Shown here: positions 3,564 to 15,258 of the stretch, one piece after another
Layout of the letters: every line of letters begins with the position of its first letter
How positions within the stretch are numbered: position 1 is the first letter of the stretch
IMG/VR virus record: IMGVR_UViG_3300000117_000016
Location: 14,420 to 78,419 of that record
DNA: 64,000 nucleotides
DNA from: a virus
Strand: one strand, 5' to 3'
Notes under the pieces: generated by a model
The model's database searches: none
Told to the model about the DNA's origin: nothing
The model's input: only the letters and a program-made list of their open reading frames with translations
Translations under genes and position numbers: made by a program

Positions 3564-4624
3564 AATATATACCTGCTAAAATTCGTGTGGTCAAAAATAC
3601 CTACATCTATCTTGCTTATTTTTTTTTGTTTTTCTGATGCAGATAGTGACAATGCTTTTCTCATTTGTGACTTAATAGATTGTATGTTTGGATTATTCCA
3701 AGTCTCATATATATTCGATATGTTGTGTGTAGAATATTTACATGCAGATAATATATTCTCTGTATTGCTATCTATTAGAAAACCGCTGTCTTTTGTTACA
3801 TAAGAAGAGTTTGCTGTTCCATTTGTAACTATACATAGCTTTTTGTGTATCAGAGCTTCTATGCACGAAGCTGTGGTATACGAACCTTTTGAAACATCTA
3901 TATAACAATCACAATTATTTAATAGTTCATGCATTTTATGTTCTTCTAAATCTCCCACAACAACTATAGGTTCGTTGACAGTCTCACTGTTTTTCTTGGT
4001 TATGCGATAAGCGCTATTCATTAAATTTTTAATTTCTGTCTCATCATGTCCGTTTGTTTTTATTATCAGTCTAGTATTATCTTCTTTGTCAAATTCTGTC
4101 ATGTATGCCACTAGAAGAGATATTAGACTGTCTTTATCATCACTAGATGACATTGTGTAAAAGTTAAATTCTCTATCTGTGTCTAATTTATTTTTGGTTT
4201 TTACATTTATATCAAAAGGTTCAGGCAACACTTTGACTGTTTTAATTACTCCAGACTCTCTCAATGATTTCTCTGCAAAATAAGAATTTACCCATACTTC
4301 GTCCATCATATTTATTTTTTCTATCCAGCCTGTATGATTTAAATTTCTGGATATTATTTTTGGAACACATATGTTGACGCCAAATCTAGCGTTGTATTCA
4401 TAGTAATCAGGTAGAGTGTCTTGTATTACTGCGTCGTAGTAATCGCTTTTATTAAGCTCATCTTCTAATGTTTTACCTTGTATATTAAAGGTTTTTGTTT
4501 GTAAGTATAAAGGTCTAACAGATAGTTTTATATTTTTTATATGTTGTAGTGCTGAGATATATCTTCTAGAAGAGTATCCTAAAGCAGAATCCTCCCTATA
4601 ATGACCTAGATATAAAATATTCAC
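3560..4624 (-). CDS. Glycosyltransferase, GT4-like (GT-B fold)
   Basis: 354 aa, starting at a GTG that overlaps the upstream stop (GTGA). The N terminus MNILYLGHYREDSALGYSS is a GT-B first strand with a loop for acceptor binding. The C-terminal lobe has VVVGDLEEHKMHELLNNCDCYIDVSKGS, then ASCIEALIHKKLCIVTNGT, equivalent to the 'EA..G.PVV' nucleotide-sugar site of GT4 enzymes; here the usual E-x7-E motif is modified. It probably transfers a sugar from a nucleotide donor. It is paired with a second GT4 gene directly upstream. Confidence 0.75.
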   Translation of the reverse strand: MNILYLGHYREDSALGYSSRRYISALQHIKNIKLSVRPLYLQTKTFNIQGKTLEDELNKSDYYDAVIQDTLPDYYEYNARFGVNICVPKIISRNLNHTGWIEKINMMDEVWVNSYFAEKSLRESGVIKTVKVLPEPFDINVKTKNKLDTDREFNFYTMSSSDDKDSLISLLVAYMTEFDKEDNTRLIIKTNGHDETEIKNLMNSAYRITKKNSETVNEPIVVVGDLEEHKMHELLNNCDCYIDVSKGSYTTASCIEALIHKKLCIVTNGTANSSYVTKDSGFLIDSNTENILSACKYSTHNISNIYETWNNPNIQSIKSQMRKALSLSASEKQKKISKIDVGIFDHTNFSRYIL

Positions 4625-6255
4625 GAGTAATTTACTATATAATTAAGAGATTCTGGAAGTGGTGTCCTGCCAGATCTGACTGATTCCCACAAAGTTTGAT
4701 TATTCATATTGTCTTCTAAAATTTTCATGGCTTGCTGGAAATCAAATGGAGCAAGTTTTGTTCCGTCCTGCTGATATCCTAAATCTAAATTCCTAATTAA
4801 TTGTTGAATAGCAGCAGTACTAATCATGTATGGGTTTTTAATTATATTTTTTACTATAAATTGTACTACCCTTCTATTGCTTCCTAAAGGAGGCACCTTG
4901 ATGTCAGGTCTAGGTACTATTTCTGCTGTTTCCCATTTGCCTTGTAATCCTGTAAGTTTTATATTATCAAAAATATCTTCAAAAGTTTTTGCTGTTTTGT
5001 CCCAGTCATATTTTTTGATGCTTTTTTCTCTAACGGATTCCGCTAGTTTCATGCGATTGATGAAACTCATCTTACTTATTTCTTTGTATTTATCTATTAA
5101 AATATCACAACACTTTTTATCATCAGGATAAACTCTATCTGCACCTGTTTCTAATTCTCTAAAGCTACAGCTCAAAGGGACAATATCTGCACCTATGCCT
5201 CTACCTATTTCTGCCATAGCTCCATGGTCTATAGTAACTACAGGAACTCCACACGCAGCTGCTTCTACAGGAGGAATGCCAAACCCTTCGCAGATAGCGT
5301 ATTGTATATACACATCAAAAGCATTAAATATATTAGCAAGCTCTGGTTCTGACAGTCCGTTCGCAACGCTACAGAATCCTGCTGAATTTTTTTTGCAATG
5401 TGGGCATGCAACTGGTGGTTCAGCATATGTTCCAGAAAAGTACTTGCCACAATTTGCACATTTGTAAGAAAAGTATACTAGATTTTCGGCATCATGTTCA
5501 ATAAGTAAAGATGGTAGATCCCAACCGTTCATATCAGGATAACTGGTGTGTAAATAAAGTTTAGCGTTAGGTACAGTCTTAGCAACATTTTTAATAATTT
5601 TAATTAGATTGGGTATCAGTTTGCGTTTTTGATTACGCATTACAGAACCTATGATAAAATCATTAGGGTTAAGTCCCAATTGTGATTTAATTGTATCTTT
5701 AGGCTGACTGCTCACTCTAAATATATCGGTGTTTACTGCATCATTTACTGGTTCTACTAAATTCATAGGGATCTTGGTAGATTTTAAATATTCTACACCC
5801 CATTGGGTGTGTCCAGAAACAGTGTCGGCATTAGAAAAAGTTTGCAGCCATTCTTTTTTTTGTGGATCAGAGTCTATTGTTGGAGCTATCATCCAATGAA
5901 AAAAGGGTCTATATGGAGAATTTTCTGGAAAATTTAACATCCAATAATCTCTTACATCAAAAACAATATCTGGCTTGAAGTCTTGTACTGCAGTTTCAAA
6001 AGCCCAAGCGCCAAATGCATGTTGTGGTTTACTAGAGTATGTCTGAAGCAATTCTTTATCGCTTTGGGGTGGCACAACAGGATATGTTTTCCATGGAAAC
6101 TTATTTTTCATCTCAGGGCTTCTATACGCAGACAGTTCAGCAATTTCGTACTTACCTGTTGCGTATAGTCTAGAAAGAATATTTCTAGTATAATTACCAA
6201 AACCTGAGTCAACATGACTAGATTCTGCACACATAAATATTCTTTTTTTGCCCAT
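4621..6255 (-). CDS. Glycosyltransferase GT4 with inserted zinc ribbon
   Basis: 544 aa from ATG 6255 with AGGAAT upstream. The N-terminal lobe opens with MCAESSHVDSGFGNYTRN. The C-terminal lobe holds FGIPPVEAAACGVPVVTIDHGAMAEI (about residues 325-350), the GT4 donor-binding signature. Between the two lobes' strands, around residues 266-287, there is an extra zinc ribbon: CANC then CPHC. Known GT4 enzymes do not normally carry this, so it may bind a protein or structural partner. A C-terminal extension of about 100 aa follows the core. It forms an overlapping pair with the next GT4 gene. Confidence 0.8.
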   Translation of the reverse strand: MGKKRIFMCAESSHVDSGFGNYTRNILSRLYATGKYEIAELSAYRSPEMKNKFPWKTYPVVPPQSDKELLQTYSSKPQHAFGAWAFETAVQDFKPDIVFDVRDYWMLNFPENSPYRPFFHWMIAPTIDSDPQKKEWLQTFSNADTVSGHTQWGVEYLKSTKIPMNLVEPVNDAVNTDIFRVSSQPKDTIKSQLGLNPNDFIIGSVMRNQKRKLIPNLIKIIKNVAKTVPNAKLYLHTSYPDMNGWDLPSLLIEHDAENLVYFSYKCANCGKYFSGTYAEPPVACPHCKKNSAGFCSVANGLSEPELANIFNAFDVYIQYAICEGFGIPPVEAAACGVPVVTIDHGAMAEIGRGIGADIVPLSCSFRELETGADRVYPDDKKCCDILIDKYKEISKMSFINRMKLAESVREKSIKKYDWDKTAKTFEDIFDNIKLTGLQGKWETAEIVPRPDIKVPPLGSNRRVVQFIVKNIIKNPYMISTAAIQQLIRNLDLGYQQDGTKLAPFDFQQAMKILEDNMNNQTLWESVRSGRTPLPESLNYIVNYS

Positions 6256-6283: not shown

Positions 6284-6673
6284 TTAAAATGCCAGAGACT
6301 CTTTGTCAGCTTGACTCTTTTTGCTAGGACTTCTAGTGATCTTAGCAAAATTACTGACACGAATCTTCATAGTAGATTGCTTGATCTTTTCTCCAGACTC
6401 TAGTTCTTTTTCCCAGCTGTCTTTCCTTAAAGATCCCTCAAGCATGACCAGATCTCCTTTACGGAACGATGATCCGATATTTTCTGCGCCAGTATCCCAC
6501 GCTTCGCAAGGAACAAATGTTGTGACCTGATCGGTCTTACCGTCAGCCTTGGTATATTCCCTAGACACTGCTACGGTAAAATTCACTACAGATGTAGACT
6601 TGCCGTTAGAAGTGTTAATATTACGCAATTCTGGATCTCTAGCTAAATTTCCCTTCAATAAAACTAAATTCAT
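6284..6673 (-). CDS. ssb: Single-stranded DNA-binding protein
   Basis: 129 aa OB-fold protein with MNLVLLKGNLARDPELR at the start and AWDTGAENIGSSFRKGDLVMLEGSL in the second half, both typical of bacterial SSB. It coats ssDNA at the fork. The C-terminal tail is short and basic/serine-rich, ending KESLAF. It keeps a terminal phenylalanine but lacks the acidic DDDIPF tip through which bacterial SSB recruits partners. ATG 6673 is preceded by AAAGGAG, and the gene has its own consensus promoter at 6714-6741, so it is probably expressed independently at high level. Confidence 0.9.
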   Translation of the reverse strand: MNLVLLKGNLARDPELRNINTSNGKSTSVVNFTVAVSREYTKADGKTDQVTTFVPCEAWDTGAENIGSSFRKGDLVMLEGSLRKDSWEKELESGEKIKQSTMKIRVSNFAKITRSPSKKSQADKESLAF

Positions 6674-6742: not shown

Positions 6743-8320
6743 CTATACCTGCCATACCTTTTTTATTATCATTCCGTCTTTCTTTTTAGACTGTTCTAGC
6801 TTCATCACAGTCGTATTGTCAATAGACAGAAGGTTTTTAAAGGTTTTGAATTCTTCTGGGAAAATCACAGCATCCAAAGAACCTGTGCTATCTGTAACTT
6901 TTACAAATGCCATTTCTTGTCCTGGATTTGCTCCTCTTTTTGTTTTAATAATATTAACGTCTTTTATTTCTATACCAATCATTATATTGTTAGATGATAT
7001 TTTTGATTCTTTGAGTGTTCTACAGTCCGTATTAACAAAATTTAGATCACATTCGTCAATCTTAGAGCAAGATACGGCGATTCCAAGCAGTTGATTTTCT
7101 GTATCTGCTATCCAGGGTATAGTATCCGACAGACTATATGCTGGGTTTTTAACGGAACTCAATATTGACTCTACTGTTTTTTTTCTTCTGGCATTCACTT
7201 TGGTAAGAACACCCTCAATACATTCAGTGATGTTTTTGTATCCTGCTATATTAGTGATTACAAACTCTTTTTCTTTTTTTGTTAAGTTTGTTATTGCGTC
7301 GAAATCGAACAACATTCGTTTTCTGTCTACTTTAAAATAGTCAAAACATCCAACAGATATCATATTCTTAGATGCTGTTTTGTTAATATTGTCTAATACA
7401 ATAAACAATATTTGTAGATAAGAAGCTTTTTCAATGTCTATTTTTATTGTATCTAGTTTCTTAAATACTGAAGCACCAACTCCTTTAATATTGGTTAGTC
7501 CAAAATAAATACATTTGTCTTTTAGTACGAAGTCTTTATTTAATAATTTAAAGTTGGGATTACAAACGTCAATAGCCATTTCTCTACAATTGCTTACTAA
7601 TTCATATATTTCTTTTAGGGGATCTATTTTGTCTTTGGCAAACTTTAAATAAGATACAAAAAATCTAGAAGGGAAATGGGCCTTAACATAGGCAGATAGG
7701 TATGCGTTCATGGCATAACTAACGGCATGACTTTTATTAAAACTATATCTTTGGCTTTTTTCGATCCATCCAAAGATTTCTTCAGCTTCCTCTTCATTAA
7801 CAACATTTGCTTCTTTAGCCCCATTAATAAACTGCCTCTTAACTTGAGCCATCAAGTCAGCTTTTTTCTTACCAATAGCTTTGCGAAGAACATCAGCATC
7901 CTGCAAATTAAAGCCCGCTATTTTTTGAGCGATTTGCATAGCTTGTTCTTGATAAATCATTTCTCCATATGTAGATGACAGTATATCTTTTAAGCTGTCG
8001 TGATAATGGTCTACAGTTTCTAGACCATTCTTTTTATCTATATAATGATTAGAAACATTTTTGCCGTCTCGATAAGCCTCTAAACATCCTGGACGCAGGA
8101 TAGAGATGAGAGCAGAAAGCTGTTCTATATTTTGTGGTTTAAGTTTTTTAGACATGGTCTGACCAAGTCTAGACTCTAGCTGAAAGCAACCTTTTGTGTT
8201 GCCTTCTCCAATTAAATGCCAAGTGGTTTTACAATCTAGGTTTAAATTTTCAAGAGTAAGGTCTAAATCTACCTTACCTTTGTGTTTTTTAAACTTACAA
8301 TCACATCGTCTTTTATTCAT
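6743..8320 (-). CDS. DNA polymerase III alpha subunit, C-terminal part (split DnaE)
   Basis: 525 aa from ATG 8320 (start MNKRRCDCKF), overlapping the exonuclease stop. It begins inside the normal DnaE chain just after the palm: CFQLES near residue 46 and SALISILRPG mark the fingers, MIYQEQAMQIAQKIAGF about 121-137, and SFNKSHAVSYA about 193-203. A helix-hairpin-helix (TNIKGVGASVF) and a C-terminal OB-fold (about 440-525) follow. It contains none of the three catalytic aspartates, which lie in the separate gene at 9233-11083. The two chains must associate to form a polymerase. No intein sequence is visible at the start. The tail seems to end at the OB-fold, without a recognisable tau-binding domain. 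Confidence 0.9.
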   Translation of the reverse strand: MNKRRCDCKFKKHKGKVDLDLTLENLNLDCKTTWHLIGEGNTKGCFQLESRLGQTMSKKLKPQNIEQLSALISILRPGCLEAYRDGKNVSNHYIDKKNGLETVDHYHDSLKDILSSTYGEMIYQEQAMQIAQKIAGFNLQDADVLRKAIGKKKADLMAQVKRQFINGAKEANVVNEEEAEEIFGWIEKSQRYSFNKSHAVSYAMNAYLSAYVKAHFPSRFFVSYLKFAKDKIDPLKEIYELVSNCREMAIDVCNPNFKLLNKDFVLKDKCIYFGLTNIKGVGASVFKKLDTIKIDIEKASYLQILFIVLDNINKTASKNMISVGCFDYFKVDRKRMLFDFDAITNLTKKEKEFVITNIAGYKNITECIEGVLTKVNARRKKTVESILSSVKNPAYSLSDTIPWIADTENQLLGIAVSCSKIDECDLNFVNTDCRTLKESKISSNNIMIGIEIKDVNIIKTKRGANPGQEMAFVKVTDSTGSLDAVIFPEEFKTFKNLLSIDNTTVMKLEQSKKKDGMIIKKVWQV

Positions 8321-9056
8321 CTTTAAAACAATTCTTAAACTGTATCCTTTGTGCAAGGTTCTTGTGTAATTTCAAAAATCTTATTAGTATATTGGCGCAA
8401 TCTGTAACGTCTTTGAATGCGTCGTGAGCATTAGAGGAATCTATTCCCATGTAAGTTCTAATAGAATCTAATGAAATGGATTTAATTTCTGGCACGTACA
8501 TCAGCCATAATCCTATAACATACATTAGGTCAATTCTATCTCTAGGATGAAATATAGACGAGCTTTTTTCTTTTGCATCAAAGTTGTCATACGTTTCACT
8601 CAACCTATCTACAATCTTCATATCAAATTTATTAATATTATATCCACAGGCTATAGGGGCAGTGAATTTACTTTTTTTACTTTTGCCAGATCCTACTAAG
8701 TGATAATTGTCTAGATATCCTACAAATTGTTGCCAAGAATGTTTCTGTTCTGGATATTCCAGCCACTCACTAAGGATTTGACTTTTGTCAACACCCTTAA
8801 CCTTGCCATGCCAATCTAAGATATCAGAATCGGTATACGGATGATTATCTATTGTGACAGCCTTGGACTTCTCTTGTAATTCAAAATTAGCTAATTTAAT
8901 AGGCTTAAGATTTATATTAAATTCAGAGTCCTTAACTATCTCTAACCTGTAGGGGTCAACCATAACGGCAGCAAGTTGAACAGGACTGCATTCATTAGGA
9001 TTGGCCCCATCGGTTTCAAAATCAAATACACATATCTTATTCTTGTTTATGTTCAT
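8313..9056 (-). CDS. DnaQ-like 3'-5' exonuclease (DEDDh), proofreading
   Basis: 247 aa with the DEDDh set: FDFETDG (D12, E14), GYNINKFDMKIVD (D145), and SSNAHDAFKDVTD (H211, D216). It removes mismatched 3' ends. It is encoded between the two halves of the polymerase III alpha subunit and overlaps both neighbours by 8-20 nt, strongly suggesting it is the epsilon-like proofreading partner of that split enzyme. Compared with bacterial epsilon (about 180 aa catalytic domain) it has an insertion of about 40 aa (residues 60-115). Confidence 0.9.
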   Translation of the reverse strand: MNINKNKICVFDFETDGANPNECSPVQLAAVMVDPYRLEIVKDSEFNINLKPIKLANFELQEKSKAVTIDNHPYTDSDILDWHGKVKGVDKSQILSEWLEYPEQKHSWQQFVGYLDNYHLVGSGKSKKSKFTAPIACGYNINKFDMKIVDRLSETYDNFDAKEKSSSIFHPRDRIDLMYVIGLWLMYVPEIKSISLDSIRTYMGIDSSNAHDAFKDVTDCANILIRFLKLHKNLAQRIQFKNCFKDE

Positions 9057-9231
9057 CTTCTATAGTTTCTACTTCCTTATTTCCGTCGATAATTAAATCC
9101 TTGTCACCATCAATAATTGCTGCATTTCTTTTTAGCTTACAGCAACTAATCTTTTGAGGCTGAACTTTTACACACTCTTTACCATCATGCAAGAACTTAG
9201 TACCAATACTCAATCTACCGAACTTAGTCAT
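9037..9231 (-). CDS. Small hypothetical protein in polymerase operon
   Basis: 64 aa from ATG 9231. AAGGAGT about 6 nt upstream selects this start over an upstream in-frame codon. The sequence has RLSIGTKFLHDGKECVKVQPQKISCC, a compact beta structure that may bind nucleic acid or a partner, and an acidic C-terminal tail (EVETIEDEHKQE). It lies immediately after the first polymerase fragment and overlaps the exonuclease by 20 nt. Function not known; it could be a small polymerase accessory factor. Confidence 0.65.
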   Translation of the reverse strand: MTKFGRLSIGTKFLHDGKECVKVQPQKISCCKLKRNAAIIDGDKDLIIDGNKEVETIEDEHKQE

Positions 9232-9232
9232 A

Positions 9233-11083
9233 TTATACTCCTTGTAATAGTGATTGTACACTCATCATTTTATCTAACAGGCCGATACCTAGTATATCAA
9301 ACTTTACTACACCAATTGATTCTAAGTCATTCATCTCTAATCCTGCAATATTTTTTTTGGTTTTAGCGTCGTAGATCATTGGGCAGATTGAGGATAGACT
9401 GCTTTGTGATATCGCTATACCTGCTGCATGTTTTGACTGATTGCATTTAGTTCCTTCTAATCTAATAGCTTGCTCAAATCTTTTTGCAAGTGGGCCGACT
9501 AATTTATCGTCTTTTAAATGACACCAATCTTTAAGTGGCTTTGGGTTGTTTTCTAAAGCCCACTTAATTATAGAGGCATCTTTCATTTCTTGTAATTCGT
9601 CTGCAATCTTAGCTTCATCTGGTATATGTTTTGTGATTTGATTCATTTCTTCAAAAGAAATATTACTATAAACTCTCAATACTTCCTTTAGTGAACCTCT
9701 ACCTTTTAGGGTATTATATGTAATCATTTGAGAGACTTTGTCTTGACCATATGTGTCTTTAATGTAATCAATAATATTTTCTCTTTGATCCATAGGTACG
9801 TCTACATCAATATCTGGCATCGACACTCTACCTCCTGTATTTCTACCAGCATTGTAAAATCTTTCAAAAATTAAGTCATACTTGATAGGGTCTATGGCAG
9901 TAATTCCAATAAGATAGGAAACAAGGCATCCCGCAGCACTACCTCTTCCTGGTCCAGGTAGCCATTTCTGCCTACGGACATGATTGACAATGTCTTGTAC
10001 AATTAAGAAGTAGCTAGACAAATCTGCTCCTTGTAGTACGTCTAACTCGTACTTAATCCTATCCACATATTGAGAATGTAATTCTTTGTCTACATCATTG
10101 GCGATCTTGTCTCTCCACCCATCTCTACAAAGCTGTCTCAAATATTCAGCTGGATCGTATCCTTCTGGACATTTAAAGTCTGGAAGATTTGGTGTTTCTA
10201 AAATATCATAATCTTCACACAAATTGTCTACTAAATTAGTATTATCTATTTCGTCTTCTGTATTTACTTCATTGATTTCTTCATGAGATAAGAGATGATA
10301 ACTATCGGACTTAAAGAAAGAATCTAATCCAAAATTTTCTCCGCTAGATAGTTTGCTGGCAACTTGTGGCAAAGTCATTTTAAGATTACTACATAATAAA
10401 ATTCTTTGATCTACAGCATCGTATCGTTCACAATAATGAGAGTCTATACTAGATATTTTCGGTATCTTATTTAAGCTACAAATATCCCTTAATTTATTGC
10501 CGATAATTTGTTGGTATTCATTCTCTTGATCCATTAGTTGTACTTCGACAAAGAAGTTATCTTTACCAAAAATTTCAGATAGCTCACCTATCTCTTTCTC
10601 TATTTGTGAATCTGAAATAAACTGGCCTTCTTTATGTATTTTATTAGCTAAGTAAGAACCAGGATGTCCACTCATACCAATGATATTACCTTGGGATAGC
10701 TTATCTTTCAATTTTTCTATATCCAATCTAGGCTTGTAATAATAATTATCTGGCTTATTAGATTCTGACACTATCTCAATTAGGTTTTTCCACCCTTTAA
10801 GGTTTTTAGATAACAGAAGCATGTGTGATAGTTTTCTGTTCTCTTTAGACTGTATATTACTGTCCTGATCTGATATATATAATTCAACACCAAGTATAGG
10901 CTTGATATTATTGTGTTTCATGGTTTGAAAAAAATTAATACAACCAGAAATTGATCCATGATCAGTAATGGCACAGCTAGACATATTAAGCTTATGACAT
11001 CTTGAAGCTACATCTTCTGGTTTAGAAAGACCATCCAATAAAGAGTAGTGTGTATGCAAATGCAAAGGCGTATAGTTTTTCAT
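9233..11083 (-). CDS. DNA polymerase III alpha subunit, N-terminal part (split DnaE)
   Basis: 616 aa. An N-terminal PHP domain keeps metal ligands (PLHLHTHYSLL, H8/H10/H12; AITDHGSISG, D41-H42). The palm follows with GPGRGSAAGCLVSYL (about 377-390), MPDIDVDVP (about 422-430, two catalytic Asp) and VVKFDILG near 593 (third catalytic Asp). The chain stops about 15 residues later, at the exact palm/fingers border, and the remainder of the enzyme is a separate gene at 6743-8320. It replicates the phage genome with the adjacent exonuclease. The ATG at 11083 directly follows the stop of the nuclease gene (TGAATG). Confidence 0.92.
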   Translation of the reverse strand: MKNYTPLHLHTHYSLLDGLSKPEDVASRCHKLNMSSCAITDHGSISGCINFFQTMKHNNIKPILGVELYISDQDSNIQSKENRKLSHMLLLSKNLKGWKNLIEIVSESNKPDNYYYKPRLDIEKLKDKLSQGNIIGMSGHPGSYLANKIHKEGQFISDSQIEKEIGELSEIFGKDNFFVEVQLMDQENEYQQIIGNKLRDICSLNKIPKISSIDSHYCERYDAVDQRILLCSNLKMTLPQVASKLSSGENFGLDSFFKSDSYHLLSHEEINEVNTEDEIDNTNLVDNLCEDYDILETPNLPDFKCPEGYDPAEYLRQLCRDGWRDKIANDVDKELHSQYVDRIKYELDVLQGADLSSYFLIVQDIVNHVRRQKWLPGPGRGSAAGCLVSYLIGITAIDPIKYDLIFERFYNAGRNTGGRVSMPDIDVDVPMDQRENIIDYIKDTYGQDKVSQMITYNTLKGRGSLKEVLRVYSNISFEEMNQITKHIPDEAKIADELQEMKDASIIKWALENNPKPLKDWCHLKDDKLVGPLAKRFEQAIRLEGTKCNQSKHAAGIAISQSSLSSICPMIYDAKTKKNIAGLEMNDLESIGVVKFDILGIGLLDKMMSVQSLLQGV

Positions 11084-12115
11084 TCAGTCTGTACTTCCAG
11101 GAGCTTGGTAATATCCTACATGATAGCCGGGTACAGTGTACTCGTCAACCACAGAATCTATTCCATTCATTTCTATATCATGTTTTACTTGTTCACACAT
11201 GGTCATAAATTCTCCTTGCTCACACAACTTACCTTCACGATATTCAATCATTGGGGTTACGTTTGTGCCATTAAAAGAATTTTTACCATAATGACATAAT
11301 TTTTTACATTTCCAACTTTTGCTTAACTGTGGTTTTTTACATTTTTTAATTTTTTCAAATTTTGTCCTAAGCAAATTCTCTGTTGCTATAATATCTGACT
11401 TATCAAAAGTCATACTAAAAGGACCACCATCATTAATAAAATATATTGTTACAATACAGTGTTTAATTTCCGGATATAGTTTTTGTGCAGCATAGAAGTA
11501 GATCATAAGTTGGGGATCTTTTTCTAATTTTTCTTGGGTCTTTTCTTCTCCCGTTGCCCAATTTAACCTACGTCCAGTTTTCCAATCAATAATTTCCAAT
11601 GTGTCATCATTAACTCTAGTAATTAAATCAATAGTACCCTTCATAGCTAGTGTGCCTTTTAAGTCACCATAATCATATTTAGCCCATGGTTTGTCTATAG
11701 TAATATCAAACTGCTGTTCAGGATAAAGAATGTCTCTGTTTCTAGGATCAAACATACCATCAGCATATGTGATGGCTTTGTGGGCCCATTTAAAACAATC
11801 TTTTTTGTCTTTTTCAGACCATTCATGATGGTCAAAATTAGATGTATAGTAATCATATACTTGTGTGCTTAATTCGGTCAGATCGTAATCGGTTACGTCC
11901 ACTTCGCCCACAATATCGTCTATAAAAGTTTTTTCTCCTTTTTGTTTAGTAAACTGTACAAAAGCTAATATTTCTAATATCTTGTGGACTATAGTGCCTT
12001 TGTCTGCTTTTTTATTAGAGGGAGACCTATAGCCTAAAACATAATCAAAAAAGTATTGTTGTTCACACATACAATGAGTATTATATGATGAGCTTCTAAA
12101 GTATGTAATTATAAT
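11084..12115 (-). CDS. RecB/Cas4-family PD-(D/E)XK exonuclease, probable ATT start
   Basis: About 343 aa. Nuclease motifs are GTIVHKILEIL, TLEIIDWKTGRRLNW (D...DWKTG) and KDPQLMIYFYAA (QL-Y), as in the RecB family. The first ATG, at 12070, would cut off conserved residues. The in-frame codons upstream read YFRSSSYNTHC followed by MCEQQYFFDYVLGY, which is the family's N-terminal 'S.S..N....C...Y..DYVLG' motif. The frame is closed by a stop at 12128-12130, and between there and 12070 there is no ATG, GTG or TTG. An ATT at 12115, 8 nt after AAAGGA (12124-12129), is the best start. It probably processes DNA ends in recombination or replication. If ATG 12070 is used, it is a 328-aa protein lacking that motif. 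Confidence 0.85.
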   Translation of the reverse strand: MIITYFRSSSYNTHCMCEQQYFFDYVLGYRSPSNKKADKGTIVHKILEILAFVQFTKQKGEKTFIDDIVGEVDVTDYDLTELSTQVYDYYTSNFDHHEWSEKDKKDCFKWAHKAITYADGMFDPRNRDILYPEQQFDITIDKPWAKYDYGDLKGTLAMKGTIDLITRVNDDTLEIIDWKTGRRLNWATGEEKTQEKLEKDPQLMIYFYAAQKLYPEIKHCIVTIYFINDGGPFSMTFDKSDIIATENLLRTKFEKIKKCKKPQLSKSWKCKKLCHYGKNSFNGTNVTPMIEYREGKLCEQGEFMTMCEQVKHDIEMNGIDSVVDEYTVPGYHVGYYQAPGSTD

Positions 12116-13844: not shown

Positions 13845-15258
13845 CAAACTCCTCAATACTATTGGGTTTCTGCATTAGTTCCAATCTGGTTTTACCTTCG
13901 CTAATCTTAGCACACCAACCCTTCATGTTACAATTAATATAATCATTGTCGTCTAATCCTCCTCCATGTCTACTGACCAGAGGTAATAATTTTCTATTTC
14001 CGTTATCTGGACCGTCTTCTGCTATTTCCTCATCTGTCTTACGTTTGAATATAGTGAAGTTGCTACAAAGCCAAATAATTCTATCTGATCCACTAGCGGT
14101 GTCTGTGCTCTCTTTGGTGATACCATCCCTGTTAAGCTGAACAAATGCTACTATAGGGACCTTATACCTAGTAGCAAAGTTATGTAAGGCTGTCATCATG
14201 AATCCTAGAACTTGATATTCTTTCATGTCTTGACTCATGCCTTGGCTGTCCATGAGTTTTAAGTAGTCGTAAAATATTACGCAGTCCTTAGCTGATCCGT
14301 CTTCATTTAGTCCAACTTCTTTAATCAACCATCGTCGCATCAAGGAGATTTGATCTTCAAAAGGTTGTCCAGCAATAGACTTGTGATATATACCCATATC
14401 TTTGAGTTGCTCTGCTGCTTTTTGTATTTTGTTTTTCTTGTTTGGGGATTGAGCAAACTTACCAGTTTCGATACTACTAATATCCACTTCTGTCATCATG
14501 GCTAGTATCCTATTTATGTGATCCTCTTTCATCATTTCTGTATCTAAATTTAGGATTGGTACTTTTGATTTAGAAGCAATATTAAATCCAATATTATCTG
14601 ACAATAAAGTTTTCCCTGTTTTGGGTCTAGCAGCAATTACATTTACTGTGCCTCTACGCAAACCGCCTCCAATAGCCTGATCATAGATAGGGAATCCTGT
14701 AGGTATACCTATTTGATCTATAGGATTATCAATTAATGACTGTATATATTCGTCAACATCCTGACCAACGGTTGTGGGGTGGTTCTCTGTGTCATTAAGA
14801 AGAGAAGAAAAATTAAATATGACGTCTTCTGCAATACCGACAATACTGCCAACGGGTTCGGTTCCTTTTACTTCAGAAACTTTACCTTTAGCTTTGTCTA
14901 GCTGTTCTTCTAAAAGTCTAGCTATTTCTAGCTTTCTAACTTTTGCAGCAAATTTTCTAACATTGTCTAATTCTACAGGGAAGTTTGTGATTGCCTGTAA
15001 GTGTTGAACTTCTTCTTTTTTAGTAACTACTGAAGATAGGTGTAATTCTTCAGCAGCTGAAAAAATAGTAGCTATGTCTAATTTAGTGTTTGGATTTTTC
15101 TCAAAAACATATTTAAAGCATTTGTATAAAACAATATTGCTATCTATGGTAAACGAGCTTTCTTGCAGCAGATCTGCTACATCATAGTAAGCATCTTCAC
15201 CGTAGTTAAATATACCCGACAGAACTGCACGTTCTGCTGACGCATCTGATAATTTCAT
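13810..15258 (-). CDS. dnaB: Replicative DNA helicase, DnaB family
   Basis: 482 aa. An N-terminal helical domain (about 1-105, starting AERAVLSGIFNYGEDAYYDVAD) is followed by a RecA-like ATPase with Walker A AARPKTGKT at about 209-217, VPILNLDTEM, and CVIFYDYLKLMD (Walker B). FVQLNRDG and the RIIWLCSNFTIF strand are typical of the DnaB C-terminal domain. It unwinds the fork as a hexamer and interacts with primase, its downstream neighbour. No separate helicase loader is seen in the window. Confidence 0.92.
   Translation of the reverse strand: MKLSDASAERAVLSGIFNYGEDAYYDVADLLQESSFTIDSNIVLYKCFKYVFEKNPNTKLDIATIFSAAEELHLSSVVTKKEEVQHLQAITNFPVELDNVRKFAAKVRKLEIARLLEEQLDKAKGKVSEVKGTEPVGSIVGIAEDVIFNFSSLLNDTENHPTTVGQDVDEYIQSLIDNPIDQIGIPTGFPIYDQAIGGGLRRGTVNVIAARPKTGKTLLSDNIGFNIASKSKVPILNLDTEMMKEDHINRILAMMTEVDISSIETGKFAQSPNKKNKIQKAAEQLKDMGIYHKSIAGQPFEDQISLMRRWLIKEVGLNEDGSAKDCVIFYDYLKLMDSQGMSQDMKEYQVLGFMMTALHNFATRYKVPIVAFVQLNRDGITKESTDTASGSDRIIWLCSNFTIFKRKTDEEIAEDGPDNGNRKLLPLVSRHGGGLDDNDYINCNMKGWCAKISEGKTRLELMQKPNSIEEFDEDSEEAIPFE

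Follow-up and report, generated by a model that had tools for sequence, protein, structure and literature searches.

A 64,000-nucleotide stretch of the IMG/VR virus record IMGVR_UViG_3300000117_000016 (positions 14,420 to 78,419 of a 79.8 kb contig; hereafter the window) carries a split replicase that is confirmed as a C-family (DnaE/Pol III alpha) DNA polymerase. Its N- and C-terminal parts, termed alphaN and alphaC, are encoded by separate genes, with an exonuclease gene between them. Judging from the sequences and from structure models, it is quite probable that the locus encodes a two-chain replicative polymerase whose halves would dock with one another. An earlier note on this DNA had described Pol III alpha as split at the palm/fingers border around a DnaQ-like exonuclease and a 64-aa protein, with the PHP domain and all catalytic Asp residues in 9233-11083 and the fingers, helix-hairpin-helix (HhH) and oligonucleotide-binding (OB) fold in 6743-8320. 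All of these assignments held when examined with the list of open reading frames (ORFs), Pfam and PHROG matches and structural comparison. The features concerned are as follows:

9233-11083, minus strand: alphaN, the PHP domain and palm/thumb of a C-family DNA polymerase (616 aa; Pfam PHP, 3e-38, and DNA_pol3_alpha, 4e-71)
9037-9231, minus strand: 64-aa ORF between alphaN and the exonuclease gene (ATG at 9231)
8313-9056, minus strand: DnaQ-like DEDDh 3'-5' exonuclease (247 aa; Pfam RNase_T; PHROG 192, 'DNA polymerase exonuclease subunit')
6743-8320, minus strand: alphaC, the fingers, HhH and OB-fold (525 aa, ATG at 8320; Pfam DNA_pol3_finger, 1e-45, and HHH_6, 1e-8)
8264-8320, minus strand: N-terminal extension of alphaC, particular to the clade and bearing a CxC motif (MNKRRCDCKF...)
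7727-7747, minus strand: YSFNKSH motif (alphaC residues 192-198), adjoining the cyanobacterial DnaE intein site and unbroken, as judged from sequence and conservation

By sequence alignment to Taq alpha, the match of alphaN runs to residue 626 and that of alphaC starts at residue 641. AlphaFold2 models of the single chains, built from input alignments that left out three rows from annotated public records, were confident for both halves, with a predicted local distance difference test (pLDDT) score of 91.4 and a predicted template modelling (pTM) score of 0.89 for alphaN, and 90.5 and 0.82 respectively for alphaC. In VIA-align comparisons, the alphaN model covered E. coli alpha residues 3-575 (Z 35-38, root-mean-square deviation (rmsd) 3.3-4.0) and the alphaC model residues 572-1073 (5fku_A, Z 21.6), the high rmsd of 8.6 in the latter arising because the domains are differently arranged; against 4jom, alphaC covered residues 573-911 (Z 21.8, rmsd 3.9). 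From these alignments to solved alpha structures, the two chains therefore complement each other and meet where the palm borders the fingers, with the structural break near E. coli residue 575. The PHP domain, the palm with its three Asp residues, the fingers, HhH and OB-fold are all present in canonical order across the two chains, and only the tau-binding C-terminus beyond E. coli residue 1073 is missing. The Pfam match to the OB-fold is weak, below Pfam's cut-off, and the fold is visible in the AlphaFold2 model. Between the KFDxLG and FQLE motifs, single-chain homologues have a linker of approximately 46 residues; the corresponding ends in the window total approximately 60, the surplus being due to the clade-specific CxC extension of alphaC.

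Relatives were gathered as eight and then 80 IMG/VR loci, plus a wider set and one contig in a Chitinophagia metagenome-assembled genome (loci used for comparison carry L numbers). They form a large group of tailed phages, mostly uncultured and known mainly from metagenomes, with contigs of up to 244 kb and alphaN identities falling to approximately 50%. The earlier note had staked its reading on the recurrence of the gene order and break point in relatives, and both were kept in all 98 clade loci that hold both halves, some of which are overlapping fetches of one contig. Because so many related loci share the break and the order alphaN-exonuclease-alphaC, the split is neither a chance event nor an assembly error, and a fused frame, which was looked for across the clade, was not seen. 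The ratio of nonsynonymous to synonymous substitution rates (dN/dS) relative to L002 was 0.032 for alphaN, 0.031 for alphaC and 0.014 for the exonuclease; purifying selection on both halves is thus strong. The split is thus confirmed as old, real and maintained by selection. A single contig, L067, has its exonuclease frame in two pieces (8062-8725), either an error or a real lesion.

The active sites are preserved across the 70 aligned loci. In alphaN, the catalytic residues D426, D428 and D596 lie within PDIDVDVP (D424, D426, D428) and KFDILG (D596), and these motifs are invariant in 70/70 loci, as are the template-binding residues of the polymerase halves and the exonuclease DEDDh residues D12, E14, D145, H211 and D216. 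The C-terminal end of the exonuclease is also conserved, with an invariant F244. The PHP ligand positions (H8, H10, D17, H42, E67, H87, H140, D214 and H216) are invariant except for H8 and H10 in later-starting rows. The window's alphaN thus retains all nine metal-ligand positions despite the presence of a separate DEDDh exonuclease; in E. coli alpha, several PHP metal ligands are lost (PMC3666897).

The genes are tightly packed. A single nucleotide separates the alphaN stop from the ATG of the small ORF, which overlaps the exonuclease gene by 20 nt, and the exonuclease gene overlaps alphaC by 8 nt; such overlaps would fit a translationally coupled operon. The small ORF matched no family in Pfam/PHROG-type searches, although it has homologues in many relatives (dN/dS 0.07 relative to L002) and is absent from L043.

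These data are most naturally read as showing a non-covalent pair, since both halves are conserved (dN/dS ∼0.03) and no match to PolA or PolB was found in eight virus records of up to 244 kb, each of which has one fingers domain. The clade's ancestor had its dnaE gene split a single time, at the point where the palm and fingers domains meet. Under the two-chain scheme, alphaN and alphaC would be translated separately from one operon and would dock along the former palm/fingers interface, rebuilding the enzyme. The DEDDh exonuclease would act as the proofreading (epsilon-like) subunit, probably bound on the side of the PHP domain, like its E. coli counterpart, and the PHP domain may act as a second nuclease.

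Several points weigh against this interpretation. The association of the exonuclease is argued from gene position and family, and a homing-endonuclease origin of the break (see below) from one relative, L168. The two-chain arrangement accounts for no role of the CxC extension of alphaC. The eight records searched for other polymerases may be incomplete genomes, and a beta sliding clamp (PF02767) was undetected in the same eight (the window and seven relatives); the clamp may be borrowed from the host or diverged. As for the extension itself, CxCx[FW] is present in 93 of the 98 relatives, with apparently two losses (L003/L004 and L019/L032/L155). A metal site formed in trans was considered for it and rejected, as no conserved Cys or His of alphaN, the exonuclease or alphaC disappears alongside the CxC motif.

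An unlikely alternative, but one deserving consideration, is that the halves do pair while the exonuclease acts independently, in repair or turnover of host DNA. Genes for a uracil-DNA glycosylase (UDG), ThyX, MazG and a dehydrogenase also occur in the gap of relatives, hence a position in the gap is in itself no proof of a complex. The exonuclease is, however, the sole gene always found there (98/98), usually overlapping or abutting alphaC with a median of 29.5 nt between the hidden Markov model matches, and its family is that of a polymerase exonuclease subunit.

Some phages use the Pol III of their host. The halves could accordingly be relics, or have been separately repurposed, with the host polymerase replicating the phage. 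This is improbable given the dN/dS of ∼0.03 in both halves, the invariance of their catalytic and template-binding residues, their strict co-occurrence in the 98 loci and the setting of the locus among primase, helicase and single-strand DNA-binding protein (SSB) genes.

We give very little credence to either of two ways in which a single chain might be restored. The first is post-translational splicing through split intein halves, the mechanism of cyanobacterial DnaE and of fractured genes in some phages. C-family genes are intein targets, as an intein-like insert at FNK|SHAV in L102 illustrates, yet the inner ends of alphaN and alphaC exclude inteins here: the alphaN tail past KFDxLG is only 16-40 residues, too short for the N-part of an intein, and the residue preceding the invariant Cys of alphaC is mostly E, D or S, being Asn in just 1/98 loci. 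Furthermore, there was no intein-family match, and the break differs from the cyanobacterial site, where YSFNKSH is uninterrupted; the earlier note was correct on both the site and the absence of intein residues. The second, RNA splicing, frameshifting or ribosome bypass across the gap, is just as hard to credit: a bypass-like element does occur elsewhere in alphaN of relatives, but the gap, ranging from ∼0.7 to 4.5 kb among relatives, is filled by genes whose starts and stops overlap, and comparison with Rfam introns and ribozymes gave nothing close to significance at the locus.

The L102 insert (3645-4073), in a single-chain phage DnaE, has Cys first and TSN before Ser, and a longer insert resembling it is found in L145 (7217-8503); both are near the position of the intein in cyanobacterial DnaE. 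L116, a single-chain dnaE, has an insert in the PHP region with a LAGLIDADG-like ORF (3860-4964), which is probably an intron with a homing endonuclease.

Outside the split clade, homologues are mostly one chain, with ∼60 single-chain genes among the classified loci. In a quick tree of 71 rows, which contains some long branches, the split clade falls on one side of a branch with a long stem (Shimodaira-Hasegawa-like approximate likelihood ratio test support of 100). Rossellomorea phage phiT1 groups with L122, apart from the clade, as a second pair split at the same border, and two changes explain the tree: the split arose once in the ancestor of the clade and again, independently, in phiT1. 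In this second pair (gp20/gp18 of phiT1, PV767480, 573 + 469 aa), the gap contains no exonuclease, only a small ORF of 49 aa in phiT1 (L093 3989-7271) and 78 aa in L122 (254-3632). L122 was recovered by an alignment query, and a query of viral contigs with the phiT1 alphaN found no relative. Cultured phages also have dnaE broken at other points: before the catalytic DxD in Jayan (L089 3983-7390), and near the PHP/palm border in BpsS-140 (L090 3848-7455) and Weasels2 (L254 2489-6242).

Least certain is how the clade's gene came to be broken. The gap is a landing place for genes, DUF1559 among them in addition to those named above, and the deep-branching split-clade member L168 has an HNH endonuclease-like gene between alphaN and the exonuclease (7005-7652), which together make fission by a homing endonuclease plausible. 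Possibly, then, dnaE was broken when another gene invaded it, a homing endonuclease being the simplest candidate, and the exonuclease gene was subsequently retained in the gap. Pfam and PHROG searches found no homing endonuclease in the gap of the window, and L168 was the only locus with an HNH gene there. In single-chain loci, the flanking sequence retrieved contained no exonuclease of this family. Bacteroides phage DAC19 was rejected as a cultured relative: it has a distant homologue of the exonuclease, but this is flanked by terminase and ligase genes, with no dnaE halves. In L022 (8740-12386) and L031 (8740-11370), DUF1559 prepilin-like and ThyX genes lie between the exonuclease and alphaC, joined in L022 by an FkbM methyltransferase gene; the DUF1559 genes may point to a Planctomycetes host.

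A split minimal Pol III alpha has already been proposed for group 2.2 jumbo phages, in which two proteins would reconstitute one enzyme (PMC7824862), therefore the split as such is not new. Both cases concern large phages with the enzyme in two proteins, but the jumbo-phage form is a minimal core without other Pol III domains, encoded by genes that lie far apart, in phages that also have a family B polymerase. In contrast, the present form spans the full PHP-to-OB order in adjacent genes, with an exonuclease in the gap and no PolB or PolA detected. A literature search, in which few subscription journals were covered, found no description of an exonuclease between the halves. Essential phage enzymes broken in place into two ORFs offer another parallel: in Aeromonas phage 25, the two parts of gp43 (gp43A/B) purify together and have polymerase activity, and NrdA of Aeh1, although split, is an active enzyme (PMC2988022). 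As in such genes in pieces (gp43A/B of 25/44RR, NrdA of Aeh1), relatives of the window have an uninterrupted gene and its fragments are collinear and complementary. However, the polymerase is of another family, and a proofreading-type exonuclease occupies the gap in place of a homing endonuclease, which is usual in such genes but not required (44RR is without one).

Among cellular enzymes, cyanobacterial split-intein DnaE is likewise encoded by two genes, but with a different break site and with intein halves, which the clade does not have. The E. coli Pol III core (alpha-epsilon-theta) also combines a PHP polymerase with a separate DEDDh exonuclease; its alpha subunit is a single chain with a degenerate PHP domain and a tau-binding C-terminus, whereas the window has two chains, intact PHP ligands and no tau domain. 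More generally, the domain past the OB-fold of bacterial DnaE1 (from ∼1074 in E. coli) is lacking in alphaC. In PolC, the exonuclease is an insertion in the PHP domain itself, on a single chain, whereas in the window its gene is separate and follows the palm.

In 47 distinct sequences from relatives, though not in the window, the PHP motif PLHVHS|HYSLLDG at the start of alphaN is interrupted by an element that contains a stop and two hairpins (e.g., L042 5960-6040, L055 5960-6040, L064 5990-6045 and L013 5995-6050). A short frame, M[DG][VM]xxxYxPLHVHS, ends in a stop directly after the Ser codon, and the remainder restarts at [HM][YF]SLLDG, with all three reading frames represented; decoding that continues after the codon just before the latter, 8-12 nt on, would restore the canonical PLHVHS-HYSLLDG length. 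Recoding of the stop (TAG = Q) was rejected, as the downstream part lies in three different frames. The element is a candidate for programmed translational bypass like that of T4 gene 60, whose described features include a stop adjoining the take-off codon, stem-loops at take-off and 5' of it, and a homing endonuclease close by (PMC5009743); the relatives' element likewise has stem-loops and a stop right after the take-off codon. Downstream reinitiation is the main alternative. A Shine-Dalgarno-like sequence precedes the first ATG in 45/47 sequences and the second part in none. Both hairpins show compensatory changes. All five basal pairs of the second hairpin are present in 25 of 26 distinct sequences (mean 4.96, against 4.46 with partners redealt; maximum 4.73 in 500), and the leaders fold at -17.7 kcal/mol against -14.8 with swapped halves, although these controls ignore relatedness. 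Upstream codons show synonymous variation (Leu CTN/TTR), but GTCCAT does not change. The sequence GTCCATTC was first observed in loci fetched by protein, and its fixity among the sequences retrieved by a pattern search is partly an artefact of selection because the pattern included it. Matching of take-off and landing codons is incomplete, since the landing codon is Ser in only 29/47 (ACT in 10, GCT in 8).

On the tree, the element has a patchy distribution that requires 10 changes, and it is present in L013 but not in L010, whose alphaN is 98% identical. An HNH motif was found upstream of the interrupted alphaN in 8/44 loci; in L013 (5277-5999) and L063 (5262-5978), HNH endonuclease-like genes (PHROG 374 and 3322) lie directly upstream of the interrupted start, and the HNH gene and element could possibly form a mobile cassette. 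If bypass is true, the 80-nt element of L042/L055 would yield a single product with the peptide PLHVHSHYSLLDG, and the relatives would add another phage system, rich in natural variants, to a type of recoding best known from T4 gene 60. A broader scenario may be put forward tentatively, as one that falls a little short of probable: the three-gene core of alphaN, exonuclease and alphaC would permanently replace one-chain Pol III alpha, both the PHP and DEDDh domains may proofread, and homing elements would have repeatedly hit the operon, with some alphaN chains completed by ribosome bypass.

The minus-strand order across the locus is PD-(D/E)XK nuclease, alphaN, 64-aa ORF, exonuclease, alphaC and SSB. 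The outer two genes are as follows:

11084-12070, minus strand: PD-(D/E)XK (Cas4/RecB-like) nuclease, upstream neighbour (Pfam PDDEXK_1), kept in relatives
6284-6673, minus strand: SSB, downstream neighbour (Pfam SSB), kept in most relatives

Elsewhere in the window, a glycosyltransferase (4621-6255) has an inserted zinc-ribbon-like CxxC...CxxC stretch (CANCGKYF...CPHCKK).

Should alphaN and alphaC reassemble as proposed, a replicative polymerase would be working with its palm and fingers on different chains. The C-family palm/fingers interface would then be testable by mixing, with a natural split replicase available for study. It would also mean that an enzyme this central tolerates fission of its gene across a large group of phages.

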